In this document: positions 2,308 to 12,101 of the stretch, piece after piece | Layout of the letters: each line of letters begins with the position of its first letter | Position numbering within the stretch: position 1 is the stretch's first letter | NCBI GenBank assembly: GCA_009785765.1 | Contig: WQVP01000003.1 | Location: 1 to 12,101 of the forward strand | Direction: 5' to 3' | Length of the DNA: 12,101 nt | Source: Alphaproteobacteria bacterium | GTDB taxonomy: Bacteria; Pseudomonadota; Alphaproteobacteria; Rs-D84 | Made by a program: the position numbers and the translations under genes | The notes under the pieces: model-generated | Told to the model about the DNA's origin: nothing | Databases searched by the model: none | The model's input: the letters and a program-made list of their open reading frames with translations, nothing else

Positions 2308-2357
2308 GATTTTTCTCCTTAAAGTAACTAGGAACTAGGAATTAGGAACTAGTATTA

Positions 2358-2379
2358 TTTGCTATATAGTTATAGCAAA
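2358..2379. promoter_or_regulatory. Perfect palindrome over the recA -10 region (candidate operator)
   Basis: TTTGCTATA (2358-2366) and TATAGCAAA (2371-2379) are perfect 9-base inverted repeats separated by TAGT. The site covers the predicted -10 and +1 of recA, where a dimeric repressor would block initiation. The binding protein is unknown. It could instead be a chance palindrome, since its half-sites are built around a TATA-like core. Confidence 0.4.
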
Positions 2380-2398
2380 ATCTTAATGTTAAAAGCAA
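2369..2398 (-). promoter_or_regulatory. Putative recA promoter (extended -10)
   Basis: On the minus strand TTGCTT (2393-2398) lies 18 bases upstream of TATAAC (2369-2374), which is preceded by TGC, an extended -10. The expected +1 is about 2362. The yajC promoter has the same TTTTGCTATA context. No alphaproteobacterial LexA box (GTTC-N7-GTTC) is visible here. Confidence 0.45.
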
Positions 2399-2453
2399 TG
2401 AATTTATTATATGAAAAACCACCAGTTCCTAATTCCTAGTTCCTGGTTGCTGG

Positions 2454-3650
2454 TTATTTTTTAAGCACAAACAGGCCTGCAAAAATCGCAACCGCACCGG
2501 CCAACAGCAACACAACCGATGTTGACCCGCTTGCAAATATAAGTGCGGCGGCAAGCATAGGCACTATGATACGAGATGTGCTTGTTGCGGTTCTATATAT
2601 GCCCATAAATCTTATTCTTTCGGCCTTTTTTGCCGCATCAAAGAATGGCAAATCACGCATAGGCTCTATGAACGCACCCGCCAAATGCCATAAAACAAAT
2701 ATAGCAAGCAAAGTATACCCATCCGCAAAACTTGCCCATAGTGCAAACATTCCATATATTAAAAACGCAGTACTGAGTATTATTTTTTTGCCGTATTTTT
2801 TGGCCAATCTGCCGGCCGGCTGGGCAAGCACTATATACGGAATAATCATAAGTGTAATAAGCACGCCCAAAGTTTGTTCAATAGACAATCCAAACAACGT
2901 AGTGTTATTTTGAACCACCATAATTGGCACATAAATTGTTCGGATTACAACCAAAGAAAAATCGCTGAACATTACAATGTATGCGCGAATAAATGATTTT
3001 CGCCTGAAAAATAATATGATATTTATCCACACCGATTTAAGTGTGCGACGTGCACGTATTGTCGTAAACTTTTTTGTCTGTTGCTTTATCCGCATCTTTG
3101 TGAAAACAAAAAGTGCCATAAAATAAAGTGCCGCAGATAAAAAGAATGGCGTCCGAATACCGAATTCTGAGGCAACCGACAGTGCAATAATCGGCGCCGT
3201 CAAAGCGCCAAGGTTTACAAAAAACCAACGACGTGCGTTAAGTTTCTCCATGCCAACACCATGCGCAAAGTCCGCCATAAAAAGCGGCACCAACAGCCCC
3301 AACATTACCTGAAACGCACCAGATACCAAGTCAATCGTTATAAACGTTGGTGCGGCAATTGGAAAGGCCATCATAAAATATGAAAGCGCAACTATTAAAA
3401 GCGATGTATGAAGCAAAGGTGCCTTTGCAAACCTTTTAAATACTTCGGATGCAAAAATAGTTATAAACGCCATCAATGCAAAATAAAACGAAACATACAT
3501 TCCGACAAGCGCCGGGTCTCCAAAGATATCAAGGAGTACAAGCGAATAAACAGCGCCAATTATAGATCCTGCAAACCCTGTAAAAAAACCCAGATTTGCA
3601 AACGAAAATCCGGTTACTTTTTTATGATGGGAAATATATTTATCACTCAT
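2454..3650 (-). CDS. Major facilitator superfamily (MFS) transporter
   Basis: Integral inner-membrane protein of 398 aa with about 12 hydrophobic segments in two halves. A basic central loop (about residues 186-222, many Arg/Lys) separates the halves, as in 12-span MFS carriers. A motif-A-like loop, PAGRLAKKYGKK (278-289), precedes a span in the second half. The substrate cannot be read; the motif pattern and size fit a drug or metabolite exporter or a sugar-type carrier equally well. The N-terminal tail (MSDKYISHHKK) is cytoplasmic and basic. The start at 3648-3650 lies only 11 bases after the S41 stop and has no clear Shine-Dalgarno, so it is probably translated by coupling within the same operon. 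The stop TAA is contiguous with the heptamer array upstream of recA. Confidence 0.85.
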   Translation of the reverse strand: MSDKYISHHKKVTGFSFANLGFFTGFAGSIIGAVYSLVLLDIFGDPALVGMYVSFYFALMAFITIFASEVFKRFAKAPLLHTSLLIVALSYFMMAFPIAAPTFITIDLVSGAFQVMLGLLVPLFMADFAHGVGMEKLNARRWFFVNLGALTAPIIALSVASEFGIRTPFFLSAALYFMALFVFTKMRIKQQTKKFTTIRARRTLKSVWINIILFFRRKSFIRAYIVMFSDFSLVVIRTIYVPIMVVQNNTTLFGLSIEQTLGVLITLMIIPYIVLAQPAGRLAKKYGKKIILSTAFLIYGMFALWASFADGYTLLAIFVLWHLAGAFIEPMRDLPFFDAAKKAERIRFMGIYRTATSTSRIIVPMLAAALIFASGSTSVVLLLAGAVAIFAGLFVLKK

Positions 3651-3661
3651 TGCATTCGCTA

Positions 3662-5185
3662 TTAATTATTCATTAGATTATTAAAAACTCTTTCATCCGA
3701 GAGTATTTGAACAGCAATTGCCATTGCCACCGCATCTTCGTCTGCGCCGGATGCAATTTGCGGACAGCCACGACGAATTACAGAAGCGTCTATGTCTTCG
3801 GCGTTAAAGTCCCTTGCGCCAAAATCATTATTTATAACGTTTACGAAAAATGCGCCTTGTTGTTCTTCGCTTCGTATATTGGACAGGCAAACAATTGGAA
3901 AAAATCCACGACCGTCCAAATCACGACCGCTTTGTGTTTTTATTATGCGGTTCATAACTTCCAAAGCGCCGCCGTTATTTAAATTTATTCGTGTGGCCAA
4001 TCTTGCACGTCCCGCCGTCGGTGTTCCGATAACAACCGCACGCCCATGTTCGTGCATTGCGGCGGCGATGGCTTCGCCCGTGCCACGGGTTCCTGTGGAC
4101 ACAACAACCACAACCCGTGCATTTGTTATAGAGTTTGCGCCCGGCACAATTTCGGTTTCTCTGTGAGCAGTTTCAACGCTGCGAAGAACCGGAAGGCGGC
4201 CTATGAAAAGACCGGCCAATTTTGCCGCAGCGCGTTCATCATCACCGTGCGCCGTACGCATATCCAAAATAATTCCAGATGGATTAAACCTTTGAATTGC
4301 TTCGTTAATAATCTGTGCGCTGTTATCGGACACTCTGTTTACAACAATTTCCAAAATAGGATCACGCCAAATAACATCTGCGTCCGTTATAATAACTGTG
4401 GCACGGCGAAGAGTAATATTACGGTCGCCAGACGCATTTAAAACACGAACACGAATCGTTCCGCTGTTAAACCCTGCGAATGCGGCAGCAACTTCGCCAT
4501 CTTGCATATCGCTTGTCCGTCGGCCGTTTATTGCGGTTATTAAATCACCGCCTCTGATGCCTTGCTCGGCTGCAACAGAACCACTAAACACACCCGTCAC
4601 GCGGAAATTTCCACGTTCATCCATTATGCCCTCTATGCCTGCACTTGTTAACAGTCGCCCGTCATTTGCAATTTCATCACGAAGCGAAAATATATATCGC
4701 CCATCTTGGTCAATTCCCGCCATCAATGCGCCAACGACAAGGTTAAATAAATCACCATCGTTTAATCTTCGTATTTCTGGGATGTGTTCACGAAGACGCA
4801 CTATCATTGCGGTTGTGATTTGGCCAAAGGCCGCCCAATCTCTGTCCGATGGCCTGGGCCAATTTCCGATTATATCGCCTCTGAAAACCAAGACTGCACG
4901 ATTTCCAGTCAATGCAACATGCGCATCTGGATGAACTTTGTCAAGCGATTCCAGCGCAATACGTATATCACGCCCGGCCCAATTTACCGCATCAAGACGT
5001 TCATAAATATCGGCAAAAACGGCGGATATTTCAAATACATTTATACCTTGTTGGATGGGATAGCGTTCGTCAAAAAGAGATGCTTGCGCCAAAGGCGCAA
5101 CCAAGAGAAAAAGTGAATAAGTGAATAAGTGAATAAGTGTCTTCACTTTTACATTCTTAACAAAATCGTTTATTAATATAGTCAT
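3662..5185 (-). CDS. CtpA-like S41-family protein, probably catalytically inactive, exported
   Basis: A carboxy-terminal-processing (tail-specific) protease homologue of 507 aa. It shows an N-terminal signal peptide ending at ...APLAQA, a helical region (about 45-175), a PDZ domain (about 180-262, with GSVAAEQGIRGGDLITAINGR) and an S41-like core (about 270-430, with GRAVVIGTPTAGR and SGRDLDGRGFFP). Active enzymes carry a Ser in SASASE and a Lys in T.GKG. Here the aligned positions are G368 (TRGTGE) and R393 (TAGRA), so the Ser-Lys dyad appears absent. It may be a periplasmic scaffold or PDZ binding protein. ATG 5185 is given as start. An internal GTG at 5144-5146 would give a cleaner 22-aa signal peptide (MKTLIHLFTYSLFLLVAPLAQA split as M-K-T then core). 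An octamer repeat encodes the core of that signal peptide. It lies between secF and the MFS gene in one run of genes. Confidence 0.82.
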   Translation of the reverse strand: MTILINDFVKNVKVKTLIHLFTYSLFLLVAPLAQASLFDERYPIQQGINVFEISAVFADIYERLDAVNWAGRDIRIALESLDKVHPDAHVALTGNRAVLVFRGDIIGNWPRPSDRDWAAFGQITTAMIVRLREHIPEIRRLNDGDLFNLVVGALMAGIDQDGRYIFSLRDEIANDGRLLTSAGIEGIMDERGNFRVTGVFSGSVAAEQGIRGGDLITAINGRRTSDMQDGEVAAAFAGFNSGTIRVRVLNASGDRNITLRRATVIITDADVIWRDPILEIVVNRVSDNSAQIINEAIQRFNPSGIILDMRTAHGDDERAAAKLAGLFIGRLPVLRSVETAHRETEIVPGANSITNARVVVVVSTGTRGTGEAIAAAMHEHGRAVVIGTPTAGRARLATRINLNNGGALEVMNRIIKTQSGRDLDGRGFFPIVCLSNIRSEEQQGAFFVNVINNDFGARDFNAEDIDASVIRRGCPQIASGADEDAVAMAIAVQILSDERVFNNLMNN

Positions 5186-5219
5186 TTTTTCACTCTTTCA
5201 TTTATTCACTTTTTCACTT
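5111..5219. repeat. Inverted pair of octamer tandem arrays spanning the S41 gene start
   Basis: The left arm, 5111-5139, on the plus strand is three copies of AAGTGAAT plus AAGTG. The right arm, 5191-5219, on the minus strand is AAGTGAAA, AAGTGAAT, AAATGAAA, GAGTG. The arms match at 25 of 29 positions in inverted orientation around a 51-base spacer. The spacer carries both candidate start codons of the S41 gene. The right arm begins at the secF stop codon TGA (5219-5221), which is contiguous with the repeat. The left arm is coding: it encodes the hydrophobic core of the signal peptide. Confidence 0.92.
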
Positions 5220-6088
5220 CATTTTTCTTCCCGCAGGCTGAAATTCAACAACAGAGCATTTGATATAAATATACTTGTAAGAGAGCCAAGCACAACACCA
5301 AATATCATAGCAATCGCAAATTCACGCAACATCGCACCACCGAACAAATAAAGTCCGAACATACACGCAATCGTTGTTGATGACGTGATAATCGTACGAA
5401 GCAACATTTCATTTACGGACAAATTAATAACCTCTGCCTTTGGCATTTTATGATACTTTTTAAAGTTTTCATCAATACGATCAAAGTTAACAACCTTGTC
5501 ATTCGTTGAATATCCAATCGCCATCAATATAACCGCAATCGCTGTCTGATTGAATTCAAGACCGACCAACGAAAAGAATCCGAACATAACAACAAAATCC
5601 AAACACAATGTAATGAACGAAGAAGTTGCATAACCACCACGATAACGTATCCATATATAAAGACTCATCAATATAAATGCGAAAAACACAGCCATAATAC
5701 CGCCGCGGATAAGTTCGCCGCCAATTTGTGGTCCGACAATCTGTACTTGTTCAAATGTAACACGATCGCCCAAAGTTGTGCGCAAATCAGACAGCAAACC
5801 TTGTTGCTCTGCCTCTGTGGAATCAGCCGCCAAACCAACACGTATAACCACGTTCCCAGTATCCCGCATTTCTTGTAATTCTGGCGAAAACTGGGCCAAT
5901 TCTGTACGCATACGATCAATGGTAAAATCTCTGTCAACCGTTGCAACTTCCAGTGATATACCACCCGAAAAATCAATGCCGTAATTAAGTCCACGCACAA
6001 AGAACGAGCCAATGGACGCCGCAATTAACGCCGCCAAACACACGTATGCAATATGTCTGTATTTTATAAATTGTATATTAAACTTCAT
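5219..6088 (-). CDS. secF: Protein translocase subunit SecF
   Basis: Inner-membrane partner of SecD; the pair uses the proton gradient to help pull exported proteins through SecYEG. Length 289 aa, typical. Visible features: N-terminal membrane span (about 13-31), GIDFSGG (37-43), a periplasmic domain, VGPQIGGEL (118-126) before the second span, and GYSTNDKVVNFDRIDEN (192-208), matching the family signature GYS.NDTVVVFDRI.EN with Lys and Asn substitutions. NEMLLRTIITSSTT corresponds to the usual N..L.RT..TS.TT. About six membrane spans are present. Start ATG 6086-6088 has AAGGAG (6094-6099) 5 bases upstream. It follows secD across an inverted hexamer repeat and precedes the S41 gene. Confidence 0.97.
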   Translation of the reverse strand: MKFNIQFIKYRHIAYVCLAALIAASIGSFFVRGLNYGIDFSGGISLEVATVDRDFTIDRMRTELAQFSPELQEMRDTGNVVIRVGLAADSTEAEQQGLLSDLRTTLGDRVTFEQVQIVGPQIGGELIRGGIMAVFFAFILMSLYIWIRYRGGYATSSFITLCLDFVVMFGFFSLVGLEFNQTAIAVILMAIGYSTNDKVVNFDRIDENFKKYHKMPKAEVINLSVNEMLLRTIITSSTTIACMFGLYLFGGAMLREFAIAMIFGVVLGSLTSIFISNALLLNFSLREEK

Positions 6089-6110
6089 GTTTGCTCCTTT
6101 GTCGCAAACC

Positions 6111-6170
6111 GTGACCGTGACGGTGTCCGTGACTGTAAATTAATACTGACACTGACACTGACACCGTCAC
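6111..6170. repeat. Hexamer inverted repeat (long hairpin) between secD and secF
   Basis: The left arm, 6111-6137, on the plus strand is GTGACC, GTGACG, GTGTCC, GTGACT, GTA. The right arm, 6144-6170, on the minus strand is GTGACG, GTGTCA, GTGTCA, GTGTCA, GTA. The arms match at 21 of 27 positions around a 6-base AT spacer. The secD stop TGA (6167-6169) is part of the right arm. The transcript of the sec genes should fold here into a long imperfect hairpin. No U-run follows, so it is not a standard terminator; it may stabilise mRNA ends or tune secF expression. Confidence 0.92.
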
Positions 6171-7723
6171 GATTTTACATATCCTATTTTTCTATTCTGT
6201 CCGCCCATATACATATCAATCATTACACGTGATAACAATATACATGTGAAAAGTGTTGTTATGATACCGACCGATAGTGTAACCGCAAAACCACGTATTG
6301 GACCTGCGCCAAACTGGAACAATACAAGCGCCGCAATAAGCGTGGTCAGGTTTGCGTCAATAACTGTTTTCATCGCACGGTCAAACCCGACATCAATTGA
6401 GCGAAGCGCCGATGCACCGGTTCGTAGTTCTTCACGAAGCCTTTCAAACTGTAATACGTTTGCGTCAACCGCCATGGCAAGAGTAAGCGCAATACCCGCA
6501 ATCCCAGGCAAAGTCAAAGTCGCACCCATAAACGCCGACACGCCGACAATCATCATCATATTGACTATCAATGCTATGTTCGCAATCATTCCAAATTTGC
6601 CATATATTAATATCATCGCAAACATAAGGAACAAAACACCTATAACCGTGCCGATTGCGCCCGCACGAATTGTATCGGCGCCCAAAGATGCACCAACCGT
6701 CCGCTCTTCAACAATGGAAAGCGGCGCAGGAAGCGCACCAGAGCGCAAAAGCACCGCCAAGTCATTCGCAGATTGTACGGTAAAGTTTCCAGAAATCTGA
6801 CCACGGCCGCCTGGGATAGGCTCTCTTATAACGGGTGCACTTAACACCATACCGTCCAAGACAATTGCAAATCTTACACCAACGTTTTCCGTGGTAAGAC
6901 GTGCAAAGCGACGTGCGCCAACACTGTCAAACACTTGGGTTACAACCGGCATTCCGTGTTGATCAAATGAACTTTGCGCATCTGTTAATGATTCGCCCGA
7001 AACCTCTATGCGTGAAAACACAGCCACCAATTGATATGGATTATCAATCATTGGCAAGAAATATGTACCAGACGGCGGCCGCCCCATTGCCATTTGTTCA
7101 TGAGTGATTGATTCATTAACCAAATGGAATGACATACGTGCGGTTTGTCCGATTAATTCTTTGATACGCTCTGGGTCGTCAACGCCCGGCAATTGCACCA
7201 ATATACGGCGCCCACCCTGTGTATTAATGGCCGGATCACGTGTACCAAGTGCATCAATTCGTCTGCGGACGATTTCTATTGAACGCTCCAAAGCACCTTC
7301 TATCATTTGTGCACGCTGTCTATCGCTGTATGACAAAGTTATAACATTACCAGACGCCGATACATCAACCGAAGCACCAAATTCAGAGCGCAGACGGGCA
7401 AGTGCACGAGATACGTCAGCGGATTCTCTTATCACAACCGTCACACCATAATCAGAGCGACGTAAATCAGAAAAGCGAATCATTCCACGGGTTCTGTCCA
7501 AAAGAGATGAACGTGTTGTATCATGCAATTGTACAACCGCATCACGGACCAGTGCATCTGTATCAACCTCCAACAACAACTGTGCACCGCCTTGCAAATC
7601 AAGACCCAGGGATATTGGCTGTATAAACCCAGGAAACCAAGGTGCAGTTTTTGGAAACATAGTTGGCACGGCAAGCATTACGCCAAACATAGCCACACCA
7701 ATAATTATTAATCTTTTAATCAT
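6167..7723 (-). CDS. secD: Protein translocase subunit SecD
   Basis: Inner-membrane translocase subunit with a large periplasmic domain that, with SecF and YajC, drives late steps of Sec export. Length 518 aa, normal for alphaproteobacteria and shorter than the E. coli protein. Visible: N-terminal span (about 4-22), GLDLQGGAQLLLEVD (40-54), the periplasmic P1 domain including RRRIDALGTRDPAINTQGGRRILVQLPG and GMVLSAPVIREPIPGGRGQISGNF, then about five C-terminal spans. VDANVLQFERLREELRTG corresponds to the conserved DANVLI.ER..EE. segment. The start ATG at 7721-7723 is preceded by a weak purine stretch (AAGTGAG), partly next to the hexamer repeat. The stop lies inside the secD-secF hairpin. Confidence 0.97.
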   Translation of the reverse strand: MIKRLIIIGVAMFGVMLAVPTMFPKTAPWFPGFIQPISLGLDLQGGAQLLLEVDTDALVRDAVVQLHDTTRSSLLDRTRGMIRFSDLRRSDYGVTVVIRESADVSRALARLRSEFGASVDVSASGNVITLSYSDRQRAQMIEGALERSIEIVRRRIDALGTRDPAINTQGGRRILVQLPGVDDPERIKELIGQTARMSFHLVNESITHEQMAMGRPPSGTYFLPMIDNPYQLVAVFSRIEVSGESLTDAQSSFDQHGMPVVTQVFDSVGARRFARLTTENVGVRFAIVLDGMVLSAPVIREPIPGGRGQISGNFTVQSANDLAVLLRSGALPAPLSIVEERTVGASLGADTIRAGAIGTVIGVLFLMFAMILIYGKFGMIANIALIVNMMMIVGVSAFMGATLTLPGIAGIALTLAMAVDANVLQFERLREELRTGASALRSIDVGFDRAMKTVIDANLTTLIAALVLFQFGAGPIRGFAVTLSVGIITTLFTCILLSRVMIDMYMGGQNRKIGYVKS

Positions 7724-7742
7724 TTTTTCTCACTTCGTTCTT

Positions 7743-7801
7743 GTGTCGGTGTCAGTGTCGGTGTCGGCGCCTGTATAATACAAAACCACTGACACAGACA
7801 C
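7743..7801. repeat. Hexamer inverted repeat between yajC and secD
   Basis: The left arm, 7743-7766, on the plus strand is GTGTCG, GTGTCA, GTGTCG, GTGTCG. The right arm, 7787-7801, on the minus strand is GTGTCT, GTGTCA, GTG. The arms pair over 15 positions with one mismatch (14 of 15), around a spacer holding a TATAAT-like core. The unit is the same hexamer word (GTGTCN) used in the next gap, between secD and secF. It lies 3 bases after the yajC stop TAA (7805-7807, minus strand). Confidence 0.88.
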
Positions 7802-7804
7802 GAA

Positions 7805-8089
7805 TTATTCAATATTCGCAACCGCATGCTTTGGAATTGTGACAACAACACCTTTGGCGATTTCAACATCCAGATTATTATCATCCATTTTTTTGATAAC
7901 GCCATATATTCCGCCGGACATCAGTATTTTATTCCCAACGGACAATTTGGACAACATGTCATTATATTCCTTCATGCGGCGCTTGTTCGGCCGTATCAGC
8001 AAGAAATATATAACACCAAATATTAAACCAATATAAAGCAGCATACCAACCATTTCATTTCCGCCGCCCGTAACAATTGTTTCATACAT
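7805..8089 (-). CDS. yajC: Sec translocon accessory subunit YajC
   Basis: Small single-span inner-membrane protein that associates with SecD-SecF. Length 94 aa, usual for the family. One transmembrane helix (about 13-31, MVGMLLYIGLIFGVIYFLL) is followed by the conserved IRPNKRRMKEYNDMLSKLSVGNKILMSGGIYGVI segment, matching the typical 'RPQ.KR.KE...ML..L..GD.V.T.GGI.G.I'. The basic C-terminal part is cytoplasmic. Start ATG 8087-8089 is supported by AAGGAG (8097-8102) 7 bases upstream. It is first in the yajC-secD-secF set and has a likely promoter of its own just after mutL. Confidence 0.97.
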   Translation of the reverse strand: MYETIVTGGGNEMVGMLLYIGLIFGVIYFLLIRPNKRRMKEYNDMLSKLSVGNKILMSGGIYGVIKKMDDNNLDVEIAKGVVVTIPKHAVANIE

Positions 8090-8117
8090 TTAAAAACTCC
8101 TTAATTTAGTATTAAAA

Positions 8118-8146
8118 TATATAGCAAAACCGCCCATAAAGGGCAA
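8118..8146 (-). promoter_or_regulatory. Putative promoter for yajC-secD-secF
   Basis: On the minus strand TTGCCC (8141-8146) lies 17 bases upstream of TATATA (8118-8123), which is preceded by TGC (extended -10). The ten bases TTTTGCTATA are shared with the recA promoter. The expected +1 is about 8111. A short GCCC/GGGC inverted repeat (8132-8144) overlaps the -35. Confidence 0.5.
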
Positions 8147-8163
8147 GTGAATAATCAAAGGTT

Positions 8164-9885
8164 TTATAACCTTTCAAACCATTTATCAATTTCGGAAATT
8201 GGGATAATTTTATAAACCGGGCGACCGTGATTACATTGTCCGCCTCGCTCTGTGTTTTCAATATCGCGCAATAATGCGTCCATTTGTACCATGTCCAATT
8301 TTTGACCCGCACGAACAGAGTGATGACATGCACGATTTGCAATTTTTAAATGTATTTTTTCGGAAAGCTTTGTGGACACTCCGCCGGTTGAAATTTCCGC
8401 CGCAATATCATTAAATAATTTCTCAAAATCAAAATCGTAATCTGCGGGCGCCTCGTAAATTGCGATTGCATTGTCGCCAAATTGACCGATTTTTATTCCA
8501 GACTTTTCAAGCTCTGGCCCTATGTTTTCAAGGGCAAGAATGAATTCAGGCTTTAATTTTATAACATGCGGTGAAAGCAAAGGTTGCGTTTTAATTTCGC
8601 CGCCACGCATACGTTCATAGACAATCCTTTCGTGTGCGGCGTGTTGATCAACAACCACCAAACCATTTTCATTTTCGGCCAAAATATACTTGTTTCCGAT
8701 TTGACCCAACACCCTTCCCAGAGGTTCGCCTGCCCCCTTGGGGACGGGATAGAATTCGTTAGCAGCTTGTTGTTTTACGAATTCTTGGGTGGGGGCATTT
8801 CCAAAGTCAAACTTTCGCACCGGCTCTTGCACCATGAATACATTATTTCCAAAATTAAAATCTTGTGACTTTGCTTGGTCTTTACTGACTATAGACTGTG
8901 GGCTATGGACTATGGACTCGGCGACAGTCGTCGCCAATACCTCGCGAATTCTTTTAATCATAAACGCCCGGATTCGTGCAGGTTCCAAAAAATGAACCTC
9001 GGTTTTTGCCGGACTTACATTCACGTCAACCGCATTTGACGAAACAGATAAATATAGTGCGCAAAGCGGAAATTCTCGGGTGCTCATAACATCCATATAT
9101 GATGCACGCAATGCACCGACCAAGACCTTGTCTTTGACCGGACGGCCGTTTACAAATAAAAACTGGTCTATTGACGATGCACGGCGAAGTGTTGGCTCTG
9201 ACACAAAGCCATATAAATTAATTTCGGACTCTTTATTTTTATCTCCGATGGACAGCATACGGCCATCCGCATCATCGCCCATAATTGCAATAATACGTTC
9301 ATGCAAAGGCTGGTCTTTTGGATACCGCCATTTATTATTAAGTGTAAACCCAACATCCGGACGGGCCAGCGCAAGACGCTTTATAACATCAACAACTGCC
9401 ATCATTTCGCCTTTGTCAGTGCGAAGGAATTTCAATCTTGCCGGAACTTTTGCAAAAAGATTACGGACCTGGATTCTTGTACCAGATTCCCATGACGATG
9501 GCTTTATTTCACCTGTATTACAGTCCAATTGAAGGCCGCCAGTACCGTTATTAGTATCAATTGTCATATCAGACACAGACGCAATAGACGGCAAGGCCTC
9601 GCCACGAAAACCCATAAAGTTTATAGAAAGCAAGTCATCACTTGGAAGTTTGGACGTCGCATGACGCATAATGCTTTTGGACAAATCATCTTGCCCCATT
9701 CCTTTGCCATCATCAACAACCGAAATCAAAGTTCGGCCGCCATCAACAACATCTATGACTATTTGCGACGCACCCGCGTCCAGTGCATTTTCCACCAATT
9801 CTTTGACAACGCTTGCCGGACGCTCTACCACTTCGCCTGCGGCGATTTGATTGATTAAATCATCTGGCAATATACGGACTGTCAT
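8164..9885 (-). CDS. mutL: DNA mismatch repair protein MutL (endonuclease type)
   Basis: MutS partner that nicks the new strand during mismatch repair. Length 573 aa. N-terminal GHKL ATPase motifs: KELVENALDAG (28-38; E29 and N33 match the E. coli catalytic and Mg-binding residues), VDDGKGM (57-63), ATSKL (76-80) and GFRGEALPSIASVS (92-105), then VDVNVSPAKTEVHF (287-299). The C-terminal dimer domain carries the endonuclease motif DQHA-XX-E-XXXX-E (413-424), ACHHSVRAG (519-527) and QCNHGRP (550-556), the metal-site set found in species without MutH. The linker (about 320-385) contains a heptamer repeat copy encoding residues about 323-333. The start ATG overlaps the greA stop by 4 bases (ATGA), implying coupled translation. 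The yajC promoter follows. Confidence 0.97.
   Translation of the reverse strand: MTVRILPDDLINQIAAGEVVERPASVVKELVENALDAGASQIVIDVVDGGRTLISVVDDGKGMGQDDLSKSIMRHATSKLPSDDLLSINFMGFRGEALPSIASVSDMTIDTNNGTGGLQLDCNTGEIKPSSWESGTRIQVRNLFAKVPARLKFLRTDKGEMMAVVDVIKRLALARPDVGFTLNNKWRYPKDQPLHERIIAIMGDDADGRMLSIGDKNKESEINLYGFVSEPTLRRASSIDQFLFVNGRPVKDKVLVGALRASYMDVMSTREFPLCALYLSVSSNAVDVNVSPAKTEVHFLEPARIRAFMIKRIREVLATTVAESIVHSPQSIVSKDQAKSQDFNFGNNVFMVQEPVRKFDFGNAPTQEFVKQQAANEFYPVPKGAGEPLGRVLGQIGNKYILAENENGLVVVDQHAAHERIVYERMRGGEIKTQPLLSPHVIKLKPEFILALENIGPELEKSGIKIGQFGDNAIAIYEAPADYDFDFEKLFNDIAAEISTGGVSTKLSEKIHLKIANRACHHSVRAGQKLDMVQMDALLRDIENTERGGQCNHGRPVYKIIPISEIDKWFERL
8887..8918. repeat. In-frame heptamer array inside the MutL linker
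   Basis: On the minus (coding) strand this reads AGTCCAT, AGTCCAT, AGCCCAC, AGTCTAT, AGTC. It is the same word as the arrays flanking the greA/lptG promoters 1.5 kb away. Read in frame it gives approximately ESIVHSPQSIV. No inverted partner was found nearby. It sits in the variable linker between the ATPase and C-terminal domains, where extra residues are tolerated. Confidence 0.9.
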
Positions 9886-10355
9886 TTAAATTCCACGCTT
9901 AATATGTCATATTCTTTGTCGCCCGATGGCGTTTTGACCGTGCAAGAATCCCCAACGCATTTTCCAATCAAAGCACGCCCAAACGGACTGGTGCATGATA
10001 TTACGCTTTTTCCATCGGCCTCTATATCTGATAATATTTGGCACTCTATTTTTTTGCCGTCTTCGTCTTCGGCAACGACGTATGCACCGAATATTATACG
10101 GTCTCCGGAAAGATTTGCCGTATCTATGATTTCGGCATTTGATATAACAGATTCTATGAAATTCATACGCTTGTTAACATGACGTTGTTTTTCGCGCGCA
10201 CTGGAATATTCTGCATTTTCGGACAAATCGCCCAGTTCACGTGCCGCCGCCACGGCTTTGTGAATGGCCGGCATCTCTATTTCTTTTAATTGTTTCAGTT
10301 CGGCGGCAAGCGCATCAAAGCCCGCCCTTGAAATTGGTCTTTTTTGTGAGTCCAT
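9882..10355 (-). CDS. greA: Transcription elongation factor GreA
   Basis: Binds the secondary channel of RNA polymerase and stimulates cleavage of backtracked transcripts. Length 157 aa, typical. The N-terminal coiled coil (about 8-78) carries at its tip ARELGDLSENAEYSSAREKQ, with the acidic pair D43 and E46 that coordinates the catalytic Mg. The C-terminal FKBP-like domain (about 83-157) includes SPFGRALIGKCVGDSCTVKTPSGDKEYDI, close to the usual 'SP.G.ALIGK..GD.V.V..P.G...Y.I'. The start ATG at 10353-10355 lies inside a heptamer repeat; the Shine-Dalgarno AAGGA (10365-10369) is also within the repeat, 9 bases upstream. The gene overlaps mutL by ATGA and diverges from lptG. Confidence 0.97.
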   Translation of the reverse strand: MDSQKRPISRAGFDALAAELKQLKEIEMPAIHKAVAAARELGDLSENAEYSSAREKQRHVNKRMNFIESVISNAEIIDTANLSGDRIIFGAYVVAEDEDGKKIECQILSDIEADGKSVISCTSPFGRALIGKCVGDSCTVKTPSGDKEYDILSVEFK

Positions 10356-10381
10356 AGTCTATAGTCCTTAGTCTATAGTCA

Positions 10382-10410
10382 ATAGTATAAGGCCAAGCGT
10401 ACAAAGTCAA
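10382..10410 (-). promoter_or_regulatory. Putative greA-mutL promoter
   Basis: On the minus strand TTGACT (10405-10410) is followed after 17 bases by TACTAT (10382-10387). TATACT overlapping it (10384-10389) is an alternative -10 at 15-base spacing. The expected +1 is about 10375, giving a leader of about 20 bases made almost wholly of heptamer repeat. Confidence 0.5.
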
Positions 10411-10423
10411 CCATCAACAATAT

Positions 10424-10452
10424 TTGACTATATATTTTGTACATAGTATCAT
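10424..10452 (+). promoter_or_regulatory. Putative lptG promoter
   Basis: TTGACT (10424-10429), a 17-base spacer, then TATCAT (10447-10452). The expected +1 is about 10459, giving a leader of about 27 bases that ends in the right heptamer arm. It is back to back with the greA promoter, with the two -35 elements about 13 bases apart. Confidence 0.5.
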
Positions 10453-10485
10453 TATATACCAATTCACAACTAACGACTATAGACT

Positions 10486-11553
10486 ATGGACTTTAGACTA
10501 AAAATTTTTACAAAATTTTTAATGCGGCGATGGTTTTTGGGCTTTGGCCTGGTGGTACTGGTGGTATCGGCCGTTATATTTTCTGTCACATTCGTAGAAA
10601 GGCTTCCCCAAGAAGCGGGCGCCATGGATTCCCTTTTCACCAGCTGGGCACTTCTTTTAAGGTATATCCCTTTGTTTTTACCGCTGGCGGTATTTATGGG
10701 GACGCTTGTTACAACATATAACCTTACCCGTTCATCTGAAAATGTTATTATATCCGGCGCCGGCCTGTCGCCATATCAAAGCACAAGACCATTTTTAATT
10801 GCGGCATTTTTTGTCGGCGTGCTCTCTGCGGCGCTTCTTAACCCTTATGCCGTTTATATCAATCGTTCAGACATAGGGTCAGAGCAAATTGACATGACGG
10901 ACAGTGCAATCTGGCTGCGAGAAACCACGGACTTTGGTACATTTACAATGCGGGCCACGGGGATTTCGTACGGAGACATGGATACTCTTGTCTTTACGGA
11001 TGTGTCTGCTTTTGTTTTGGACGATGAATCAAAATTTCAACAAAGGATAGAGGCCGCTGAAATAATACTGTCCACTCACAGTTTTTATGCACCAATCGCA
11101 ACTATATACAGCACGGACGGTCTTCCCACAGAGATTACCGATTGGAATATATCTTCGCTTATGACGCCGGACGCTGTGCTGGAAAGACATCTTCGTCCCG
11201 AACACGTATCATTTTGGAGACTTCCGATGTTTATCCGAAATCTTGAAAACATGGGCCTTAATTCCCGTGGCCACAAGATTCAGTTTTTTACACTTTTGTT
11301 TTTGCCTCTTACCTTGATTGCTATGGCAACATTGGGCGTCGCATTTTCACAAAGCAGACAAAGGCGCAATCATTCTTTTGGCGTGAAATTTGGTGCCGGA
11401 ATATTAACATGCTTTATATTGTATTTTATAATTAATGTGTTTGGCGCACTTGGTGCAAGTGGAGCATTGCCACCACTTATCGCCGTACTTTCGCCGCCAT
11501 TAATCGTAATGATTGGCGCCGCGATATTTATTGTTTCGTATGATAATATATAG
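10486..11553 (+). CDS. lptG: LPS export ABC transporter permease LptG
   Basis: Inner-membrane permease of the LptB2FG machine, which extracts LPS and feeds it to the LptC-A-D bridge. Length 355 aa, normal for the YjgP/YjgQ family. Visible: an N-terminal amphipathic start (KIFTKFLMRRWF), span 1 (about 15-35), two further spans (about 50-75 and 98-118), a periplasmic beta-jellyroll region (about 125-262) and three C-terminal spans. SFWRLPMFIRNLENMGLNSRGHKIQFFTLLFLPL and GALGASGALPPLIAVLSP match LptG better than LptF. SSENVIISGAGLSPY corresponds to the coupling-helix region that contacts LptB (usual form E....R.SGLS). The ATG lies within the heptamer repeat and lacks a good Shine-Dalgarno (AACGA at the expected place). 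lptF is not in the window. Confidence 0.92.
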   Translation: MDFRLKIFTKFLMRRWFLGFGLVVLVVSAVIFSVTFVERLPQEAGAMDSLFTSWALLLRYIPLFLPLAVFMGTLVTTYNLTRSSENVIISGAGLSPYQSTRPFLIAAFFVGVLSAALLNPYAVYINRSDIGSEQIDMTDSAIWLRETTDFGTFTMRATGISYGDMDTLVFTDVSAFVLDDESKFQQRIEAAEIILSTHSFYAPIATIYSTDGLPTEITDWNISSLMTPDAVLERHLRPEHVSFWRLPMFIRNLENMGLNSRGHKIQFFTLLFLPLTLIAMATLGVAFSQSRQRRNHSFGVKFGAGILTCFILYFIINVFGALGASGALPPLIAVLSPPLIVMIGAAIFIVSYDNI

Positions 11554-11577
11554 TCGTGTTCGTGGTTCGTGCCCGTA
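11554..11577 (+). repeat. Short degenerate heptamer array after lptG
   Basis: About three imperfect copies of a CGTGNTT unit (CGTGTT, CGTGGTT, CGTGCCC, CGTA) begin directly after the lptG stop TAG (11551-11553). It has a different word from the other arrays and no inverted partner in the window. I see no hairpin with a T-run, so it is not an obvious terminator. Confidence 0.6.
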
Positions 11578-11600
11578 AGATAAAAAGAAAGGATTGCAAA

Positions 11601-11735
11601 ATGCCCGCAAAGAAAAAAACTTATACAAAACAAATTATCGCCGGAATTATCATTTTAATAATTTTTGCTCTTATGTTTTATTATCAACAACCTATTCAAC
11701 ATATAAACGAAGTTCTACTAGTGCCTAATGCCTAG
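11601..11735 (+). CDS. Small single-span membrane peptide (44 aa), unknown function
   Basis: I do not recognise it. The ATG at 11601 is preceded by a good Shine-Dalgarno, AAAGGA (11588-11593), 7 bases upstream, which argues for real translation despite the small size. The peptide begins with a basic stretch (MPAKKKTYTK), then a strongly hydrophobic helix at about residues 11-28, then a short polar tail (YYQQPIQHINEV) ending LLVPNA. The N-terminal positive charges predict an N-in orientation. The last five codons and the TAG stop come from a heptamer repeat. It lies between lptG and xerD, in the same frame as xerD and separated from it by that TAG and four codons (TGC CTG ATG CCT). It could be a small regulatory or accessory membrane peptide; no family can be assigned. 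Confidence 0.65.
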   Translation: MPAKKKTYTKQIIAGIIILIIFALMFYYQQPIQHINEVLLVPNA

Positions 11736-11746
11736 TGCCTGATGCC
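11719..11746 (+). repeat. Heptamer array forming a three-frame stop cassette before xerD
   Basis: Four units, TAGTGCC, TAATGCC, TAGTGCC, TGATGCC, run straight into the TATG that contains the xerD start. Each unit begins with a stop triplet, and since 7 is not a multiple of 3, successive units place stops in all three frames. The third unit supplies the stop of the 44-aa ORF. Confidence 0.9.
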
Positions 11747-11747
11747 T

Positions 11748-12101
11748 ATGAACCACATCAACATCTTTCTTGAAGCCATAGTCGCAGAACGTGGGCGAAG
11801 CAAGCGAACGGTCGCATCATACAAATCCGACCTTGAACTTGCATCCGCACAACTTGGCGACTTGACGCACCTGTCAAGCGAAGACATTGCCGATTATCTT
11901 GCATCCCTATCACACAAAGGTATTGGTGCATCAACCATCGCACGAAAGACATCTGCGTTTCGTTCTTTTTACCGATTTCTTGCGCTTGAAAAAATCATAA
12001 CAAAAAATCCAACTTTGTCTTTGGAACTTCCACGTGTTGCAAAACCATTGCCGAAGTATTTAACGGCGGACGAAATAGAAGACCTTATAAATGCAGCCGG
12101 C
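11748..12101 (+). CDS. xerD: Tyrosine recombinase XerD (N-terminal part, cut by window end)
   Basis: Site-specific recombinase that, with XerC and FtsK, resolves chromosome dimers at dif. The visible 118 codons form the N-terminal SAM-like core-binding domain: FLEAIVAERGRSKRTVASYKSDLELASAQLGD, then IADYLASLSHKGIGASTIARKTSAFRSFYRFLALEKIITKNPT, then LELPRVAKPLPKYLTADEIEDLINAAG. The stretch KNPT..LELPRVAKPLPKYL favours XerD over XerC or phage integrases. The catalytic domain (R-H-R-Y) lies beyond the window. The ATG at 11748 is chosen because it aligns with the usual family start; an in-frame ATG at 11742 would add two residues. Neither has a Shine-Dalgarno, so translation may depend on termination of the 44-aa ORF just upstream. 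Confidence 0.9.
   Translation, partial: MNHINIFLEAIVAERGRSKRTVASYKSDLELASAQLGDLTHLSSEDIADYLASLSHKGIGASTIARKTSAFRSFYRFLALEKIITKNPTLSLELPRVAKPLPKYLTADEIEDLINAAG

Follow-up and report, generated by a model that had tools for sequence, protein, structure and literature searches.

What are the short tandem arrays that occupy many of the gaps between genes in this stretch of alphaproteobacterial DNA, and how might they have spread? The window, by which we mean the whole of contig C3 (12,101 bp) of genome G000 (512,778 bp in 102 contigs, 54.6% complete), carries around recA, the sec genes, mutL and greA arrays of 6-8-base words, and the original prediction, made from the letters of the window, was that they have an architecture in common and not a sequence. 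The common architecture, units of 6-8 bases in inverted pairs, was borne out; the theme free of sequence was not, in view of word families that run through the genome and of dispersed copies of units with a shared core. Judged from the DNA sequence, the words form genome-wide families, and some of the pairs are dispersed copies around a shared core. With about even confidence we read the arrays as hairpin repeats that form a young population throughout the genome, are probably neutral or selfish, and spread by copying.

Genome-wide counts cover 41 of the 102 contigs of G000 (303,034 bp), arrays being called with Tandem Repeats Finder (TRF) at score thresholds that differ between counts (30, 36 or 40), and genes being taken from home-made models. 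This sample holds 288 arrays of period 6-8 (34, 232 and 22 of periods 6, 7 and 8), against 7-16 in five Markov-2 shuffles, and strictly intergenic DNA, concatenated to 26,031 bp, holds 108 against 0-3 in 20 shuffles; a lower TRF threshold raised the count for the 41 contigs to 379. Both checks that were proposed for the arrays, against shuffled sequence and against the rest of the genome, were therefore passed, the arrays being spread through G000 far beyond the window. Median copy numbers are alike for periods 6, 7 and 8 (4.58, 4.43 and 4.62), which indicates that the number of units, and not the length, is held. Heptamer arrays scoring at least 40 (n = 207) have about four units, as in the heptamer repeats of Xanthomonas (median 4.43), with a main length peak at 31-33 bp (88/207) and a secondary one at 27 bp (22/207).

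Distant sites had been thought to share no words, which is false at the scale of the genome: among 235 heptamer arrays, 550 unlinked pairs have the same word. Words drawn at random from gaps give 66 such pairs on average and no more than 108 over 200 draws, and words with their letters shuffled give 36 on average and 53 at most. The families combine fixed and free positions; AGGTAAN alone accounts for 58 units in 14 arrays, and further families are AGTGAAWR, AGTRAYC, AGGMAYY, CGTRAAT and GTGTCN. Lexicons differ between species: among the exact consensus words of heptamer arrays (score at least 40) from 17 genomes, most of them sampled by 7-100 kb only, three (AAATCAG, AAAGAGC and AGAGCAT) occur in at least three genomes. 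These counts bear on purely local mutation, in which slippage would expand a seed, fold-back template switching would write an inverted copy nearby, and, in compact genomes, only gaps and loops would tolerate the product. Slippage at 7 nt has been proposed by Mrazek (2007, as cited in PMC4679880), but the excess of unlinked same-word pairs, 550 against 66, argues against a purely local origin, which we consider unlikely; slippage plus inversion alone, as suggested in the original prediction, is insufficient for the word families and for the shared-core copies.

The latter emerged from the DNA between paired arms. Among 71 such spacers 29 cluster at E ≤ 1e-3, in groups of 8, 5, 5, 3, 3, 3 and 2, whereas ten control draws of 71 array-free gap chunks gave 2-15 clustered nodes. 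The unit that we call class A (87 bp, arm-core-arm, with a core around TTGTTGGAATTATATCCACAAA) has seven full-length matches in G000, query included, at 84-100%, and none in 23 other genomes; the eight-member cluster also contains L012_4801, which is left out of the class A count. Ten class A sequences align across both arms and the core, and their flanks are unrelated by eye. Their words, AGGAAYY, AGGGAYT and AGGCAYT, are related, copies with the last two being more diverged. The presence of class A at unrelated places indicates that arm-core-arm units were duplicated to new sites within the lineage, and such units also speak against an origin by local mutation. The core of class G is matched at 8 loci of G000, at 3 of them in full length, with no match in 23 other genomes, and class B has its core and much of the unit order of its left arm in common between three loci. 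G013, from another genus, carries two copies of its own unit, which are 84% alike over 51 bp; G004 gave a match resembling class A (E 0.046), set aside because it is probably coding sequence. The common DNA between the arms of some pairs thus marks part of the population as dispersed, in the manner of the hairpin-forming doublets of repetitive extragenic palindromic (REP) sequences known as REPINs, or of miniature inverted-repeat transposable elements (MITEs).

The AT-rich palindromes TTGTCCATTATAATGGACAA and GTCTACTATAGTAGAC occur repeatedly in G000, either within heptamer pairs or on their own (L036:342-360, L036:2981-3004, L014:3496-3519, L014:4819-4838, L030:5968-5987, L032:3872-3891; L041:139-154, L036:311-326), and several AT-rich palindromes of this genome resemble two-way terminators. 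A search of 10 loci against Rfam returned rRNA and tRNA only.

The pairs have a marked orientation. Of the neighbours with the same word at most 400 bp apart, 71 are inverted and 5 direct in G000, and 48 are inverted and none direct in sixteen relatives pooled (from a set of 39 assemblies of 0.7-1.1 Mb each, one genome per species). Whichever strand is read, the purine-richer arm comes first in 61 of the 71 pairs (7 opposite, 3 equal), and the sixteen relatives give 39 purine-first, 5 pyrimidine-first and 4 equal; facing pairs of fixed polarity are likewise a feature of the inverted heptamer repeats of the Xanthomonas type. Under a looser pair definition (85 pairs), the same three classes number 42/1/2 in co-directional gaps, 7/0/0 in convergent gaps, 9/3/0 in divergent gaps, 11/5/2 inside genes and 3/0/0 near contig edges.

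If one arm had been copied from the other, the order of variant units might be expected to testify to it. This order is not mirrored between arms in G000 (48 pairs, mean rank 0.511); in relatives the mean rank is 0.600 (p = 0.073), and a pooled test of 81 pairs found 54% above the null (Stouffer z 2.18). Arm-to-arm copying, as read from unit order, is absent in G000 and weak in relatives, and the unmirrored order in G000 counts against local fold-back copying. In favour of the latter are the arms that are exactly mirrored (3/48 pairs in G000, 8 of 35 testable pairs in relatives), the pairs that surround native coding sequence, and the closer resemblance of partner arms than of unlinked arms with the same word (18.5 vs 16.1, p = 0.003); compared with all arms that have its word, however, the true partner ranks at only 0.57 (p = 0.16, n = 45). 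An inverted word (12/14) lies near 9 of 90 single arrays, against 1 for shuffled and 2 for direct words, which suggests that some single arrays may be decayed pairs.

To return to spread by copying, each arm of the proposed element is built from a 6-8-base word in four to five tandem repeats, and either the whole hairpin (arm, core, inverted arm) or single arms would be copied. We infer that this could occur by template switching between folded single-stranded arrays in replication or repair, locally as well as between loci. Any unit of one arm would pair with any unit of the other, out of register, and such pairing followed by repair would change the word in both arms and scramble the order of units. 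Register slippage of this kind would explain why arms share a word and not a unit order, and why class A copies differ in the word of both arms with the core kept. More specifically, and as a tentative proposal only, the arrays might be a mobile hairpin with heptamer-array ends that can do without its own transposase, whose arms rewrite their word together, one hairpin thereby diversifying into many word families in each species while polarity and unit number are kept.

No enzyme was found for the arrays, the transposition-related searches being those for the Y1 transposase and for reverse transcriptase, with no DDE family searched. The Y1 transposase family PF01797 has matches above the cut-off in G007 and G012 and one below it in G017, making 3 of 40 genomes, and was not found in G000 (only 54.6% complete), G001-G006 or G008. 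An origin from REP-associated tyrosine transposases (RAYTs) was rejected, as PF01797 is absent from the array-rich G005, G006 and G008 (92-99% complete) and also from the array-bearing G002 and G004 of the same genus; the matches in the array-bearing G012 and G017 are weak. Reverse transcriptase was likewise discarded: RVT_1 is present in 14 of 40 genomes and does not track the arrays, not being found in the array-bearing G000, G001, G002, G004 and G017 and having one member in the array-poor G003. Loss of mismatch repair was dismissed as well, with MutS matches in 36 of 40 genomes (a fragment below the cut-off in G000) and mutL in the window. The SbcD nuclease family passes the cut-off in 0 of 40 genomes of the order, with 2 weak matches. 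We suggest that absence of the hairpin nuclease SbcCD might be permissive, and at most that, since SbcD is missing from array-poor genomes and from the control Caulobacter too.

Several results weigh against spread by copying. SbcD is also missing from array-free relatives, and target duplications are not in excess, 2 of 83 pairs sharing at least 6 end bases against 4.4 under the null, with uncertain ends. As many as 42 of the 71 spacers do not cluster, and the cores of class G and its relations contain terminator-like palindromes, so that some of the clustering may not reflect mobility. Unit divergence is 0.070 in paired and 0.109 in single arrays (112 and 90 arrays), a difference that is not significant (p = 0.52). 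Exactly fixed positions beside one free position in a word could also mean selection. Finally, the two arms in a Methyltransf_4 protein are separate insertions, of 9 and 5-6 residues, on either side of conserved residues that are native, which shows that not every pair is one inserted unit; pairs around native DNA indicate that arms can also be gained separately.

The placement of the arrays brings in a further explanation, namely that they are selected modules, either binding sites or RNA or DNA hairpins at gene ends, kept while their words turn over; suggested roles are in mRNA 3' ends, as processing sites and as translational leaders, and a translational role has been proposed for TAACTGA arrays by MacGregor (PMC4679880). 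We judge such modules, in any of these roles, to be improbable. The arrays had been said to fill most of the gaps, and gaps of 60 bp or more carry one in 92 of 161 cases. Of 290 arrays scoring at least 36, however, 165 lie in gaps and the other 125 inside gene models, 86 of the latter at a distance of over 60 bp from both ends of the gene, counts that are approximate because the gene models are home-made. The arrays deep in genes (86/290) argue against selected modules. Nor do most arrays begin at a stop codon, as had been claimed: where a gap array is flanked by two genes (154 arrays), the nearest gene end is a stop for 70 and a start for 84. Those 70 lie at a median distance of 0.5 bp, and the purine strand is sense beside stops in 51 cases (antisense 16, neutral 3) and antisense beside starts in 48 (sense 27, neutral 9). 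This proximity and strand bias, together with the ratio of 42 to 1 in co-directional gaps, the fixed positions within words and a pair between secF and S41 in 8 of 13 genomes, would fit selection. However, all three frames are closed by the purine strand in 122 of 235 arrays and by the other strand in 56, and stop proximity may therefore be a by-product of reading into the array. Mismatches between arms show no bias towards G-U on the sense strand (71 G-U vs 94 A-C), which gives no support to a leader or RNA-hairpin role. Several relatives also have few or no arrays: heptamer arrays (score at least 40) number 4 in 80 kb of G003 and 1 in 60 kb of G014, and none was found in single stretches of 13.5-20 kb of G007, G010 and G015. 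Per 100 kb, their density is 68 in G000 against 5 in G003 of the same genus.

Comparison with relatives was expected to show position kept and word changed, and this held at one junction, secF/S41, in 8 of 13 genomes (TRF detects both arms in five of them and a single arm in each of G008 and G013, while G004 was read by eye only). In all eight the purine-rich arm adjoins the stop codon of secF, and its partner codes for hydrophobic residues at the N-terminus, the words differing; no clear pair was seen in G003, G010, G014, G015 and G020. At window positions 3662-5219, and at the S41 loci of relatives, an N-terminus that by eye resembles a signal peptide is coded by the repeat arm, a possible case of repeat DNA recruited into coding sequence. 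Gaps gain DNA from the arrays: at each of the 8 junctions compared, genomes with arrays have the longer median gap, with gene ends extended from tblastn, only 1-3 array-bearing genomes at six of the junctions, and G008 and G013 omitted at secF/S41; it is 85 bp with and 21.5 bp without arrays at yajC-secD (n = 7 and 10), and 130 and 43 bp at greA-lptG (n = 1 and 13). In coding sequence the arrays occupy loops: a PheT-like protein is lengthened by 4 and 2 residues at two single arrays, and in MnmE an array replaces a loop with the length unchanged, the loop of G004 being coded by an array with another word than in G000 (the coding readings for G004 being made by eye from sequence and alignment). 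The linker of RuvA is array-coded in both G000 (L034:1583-1609) and G004 (L082:413-444), again with different words. Recurrence at such sites may reflect mere tolerance. In G013, inverse arrays of one 8-base word, 2.6 kb apart (L090:2644-2673 and L090:5274-5304), flank the secF-secD block.

In the window itself, all five inverted pairs predicted were confirmed by inverted-repeat search, and TRF lists seven of the eight arrays claimed, the eighth, after lptG, being visible by eye only (score below 30). Between recA and a gene labelled as major facilitator superfamily (MFS), an arm with the word AGGAAYT beside recA (2326..2352, plus strand) faces one at the MFS gene end (2425..2455, minus strand); the inverted repeat spans 2323-2366/2408-2451 (44 nt arms, 82%). 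At secF/S41, an arm with the 8-base word AGTGAATA lies in the 5' portion of the reading frame for the S41 peptidase (5103..5139, plus strand), where its translation gives a hydrophobic stretch that by eye resembles a signal-peptide core; the spacer (5140..5181, minus strand) clusters with class D cores from four other loci at E ≤ 1e-3, and the inverted arm (5182..5219, minus strand), which adjoins the secF stop, includes at its edge the start codon annotated for S41, 5183-5185 (5111-5139/5191-5219, 29 nt, 86%). Two gaps contain GTGTCN-type words of 6 bases with no strand assigned: secD/secF, with arms at 6108..6136 and 6145..6171 (6116-6136/6151-6171, 21 nt, 86%), and yajC/secD, with an arm at 7743..7767 and a short inverted one at 7787..7801 that is absent from the TRF list (7743-7757/7787-7801, 15 nt, 93%). 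The greA/lptG pair consists of an AGTCYAT arm containing the annotated greA start codon (10353-10355; arm 10349..10386, minus strand) and an inverted arm containing that of lptG (10486-10488; arm 10475..10500, plus strand); it is pyrimidine-first, opposite to the general polarity (10349-10372/10469-10492, 24 nt, 96%). Diverging -35/-10-like promoter sequences can be read by eye between these arms (10375-10460). Folded as single-stranded DNA, four of the five pairs are better than all of 200 shuffles, and the yajC/secD pair is matched by 2 of 200. Unpaired are an AGTCYAT array in mutL (8887..8918, plus strand), which in an alignment of 13 MutL proteins separates the conserved N-terminal part from the remainder, the weak TCGTGKT array TCGTGTTCGTGGTTCGTG directly 3' of the lptG stop (about 11553-11576, no strand assigned), and an AGGCAYT array that ends at the xerD start (11718..11748, minus strand; TRF). 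Among the proteins of the window, RecA, SecF, SecD, YajC, MutL and GreA exceed an NCBIfam cut-off, LptG, the S41 peptidase and the cut XerD have matches below it, and the MFS protein has none, its name being the label given in the earlier reading; the nearest named record to SecD is from an uncultured alphaproteobacterium (66% identity).

Among known systems, the closest in architecture are the heptamers GGGAATC and GGGGA(C/T)T of Xanthomonas and Nostoc, proposed to form quadruplexes (Rehm 2015, PMC4692102). They too are heptamers with a preference for four units and for facing inverted pairs (70 and 75 in two Xanthomonas genomes, few in Nostoc), their G-rich strand, like the purine strand here, is the sense strand close to stops and the antisense strand ahead of genes, and their position is kept in relatives while length and sequence vary (PMC4692102). 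They are mostly intergenic, with intragenic shares of 11% and 7% in the two Xanthomonas and 68% intergenic in Nostoc (PMC4692102), whereas 125 of 290 arrays lie inside gene models here; and unlike their one word type per genome, we find many word families, periods 6 and 8 as well, and shared cores. The match in period, unit preference and inverted pairing would also suit G-quadruplex elements of the kind proposed for GGGAATC, but four GGG tracts on one strand occur in just 12 of 235 heptamer arrays (223 lack them), and many words take the place of a single quadruplex-capable G-tract word, which makes this explanation very improbable. Calothrix is said to have, from work by Mazel in 1990 on its STRR (short tandemly repeated repetitive) heptanucleotides, several heptanucleotide words in one genome, as here. 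Three heptanucleotides in Calothrix are mentioned in PMC4692102. The TAACTGA direct repeats of Beggiatoaceae, cyanobacteria and Bacteroidetes (MacGregor 2015, PMC4679880) resemble ours as intergenic heptamer arrays near start codons with a patchy distribution, and differ in their single word and direct sets, with one indirect repeat in 169 sets; shared cores, present here, are not mentioned in the part of that report at hand. Like REPINs (Bertels and Rainey 2011, PMC3116915), the pairs consist of two inverted repeats separated by a spacer, can form hairpins, are dispersed and fall into several families per genome, and this dispersed doublet is also typical of bacterial interspersed mosaic elements (BIMEs). 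For REPINs, hairpin DNA in excised or circular form has been reported (PMC3116915). REPIN arms are REP palindromes with RAYT transposases (PMC3116915), whereas here they are tandem heptamers and most array-bearing genomes lack a Y1 transposase; a RAYT as in REPINs and BIMEs was not found in G000 (54.6% complete), and target-site duplications as in MITEs are not in excess. The arrays have the architecture of inverted heptamer repeats, and some of them behave like REPINs or MITEs, but they fail the tests made for an enzyme and for target duplication. In the literature searched, which took in few subscription papers, the nearest reports were Rehm 2015 and MacGregor 2015, and hairpins that combine heptamer arms, shared cores and many words were not described.

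Heptamer repeats in bacteria were reported earlier without an accepted mechanism, and the most detailed case that we found was tied to G-quadruplexes. As period, unit number, facing pairs and polarity recur here with words that are mostly free of G-tracts, these shared features need another cause. The strong differences in density between species of one genus constitute a natural experiment, and the arrays supply coding sequence, in the N-terminus of S41 in several species and in the linker of RuvA and the loop of MnmE in two.

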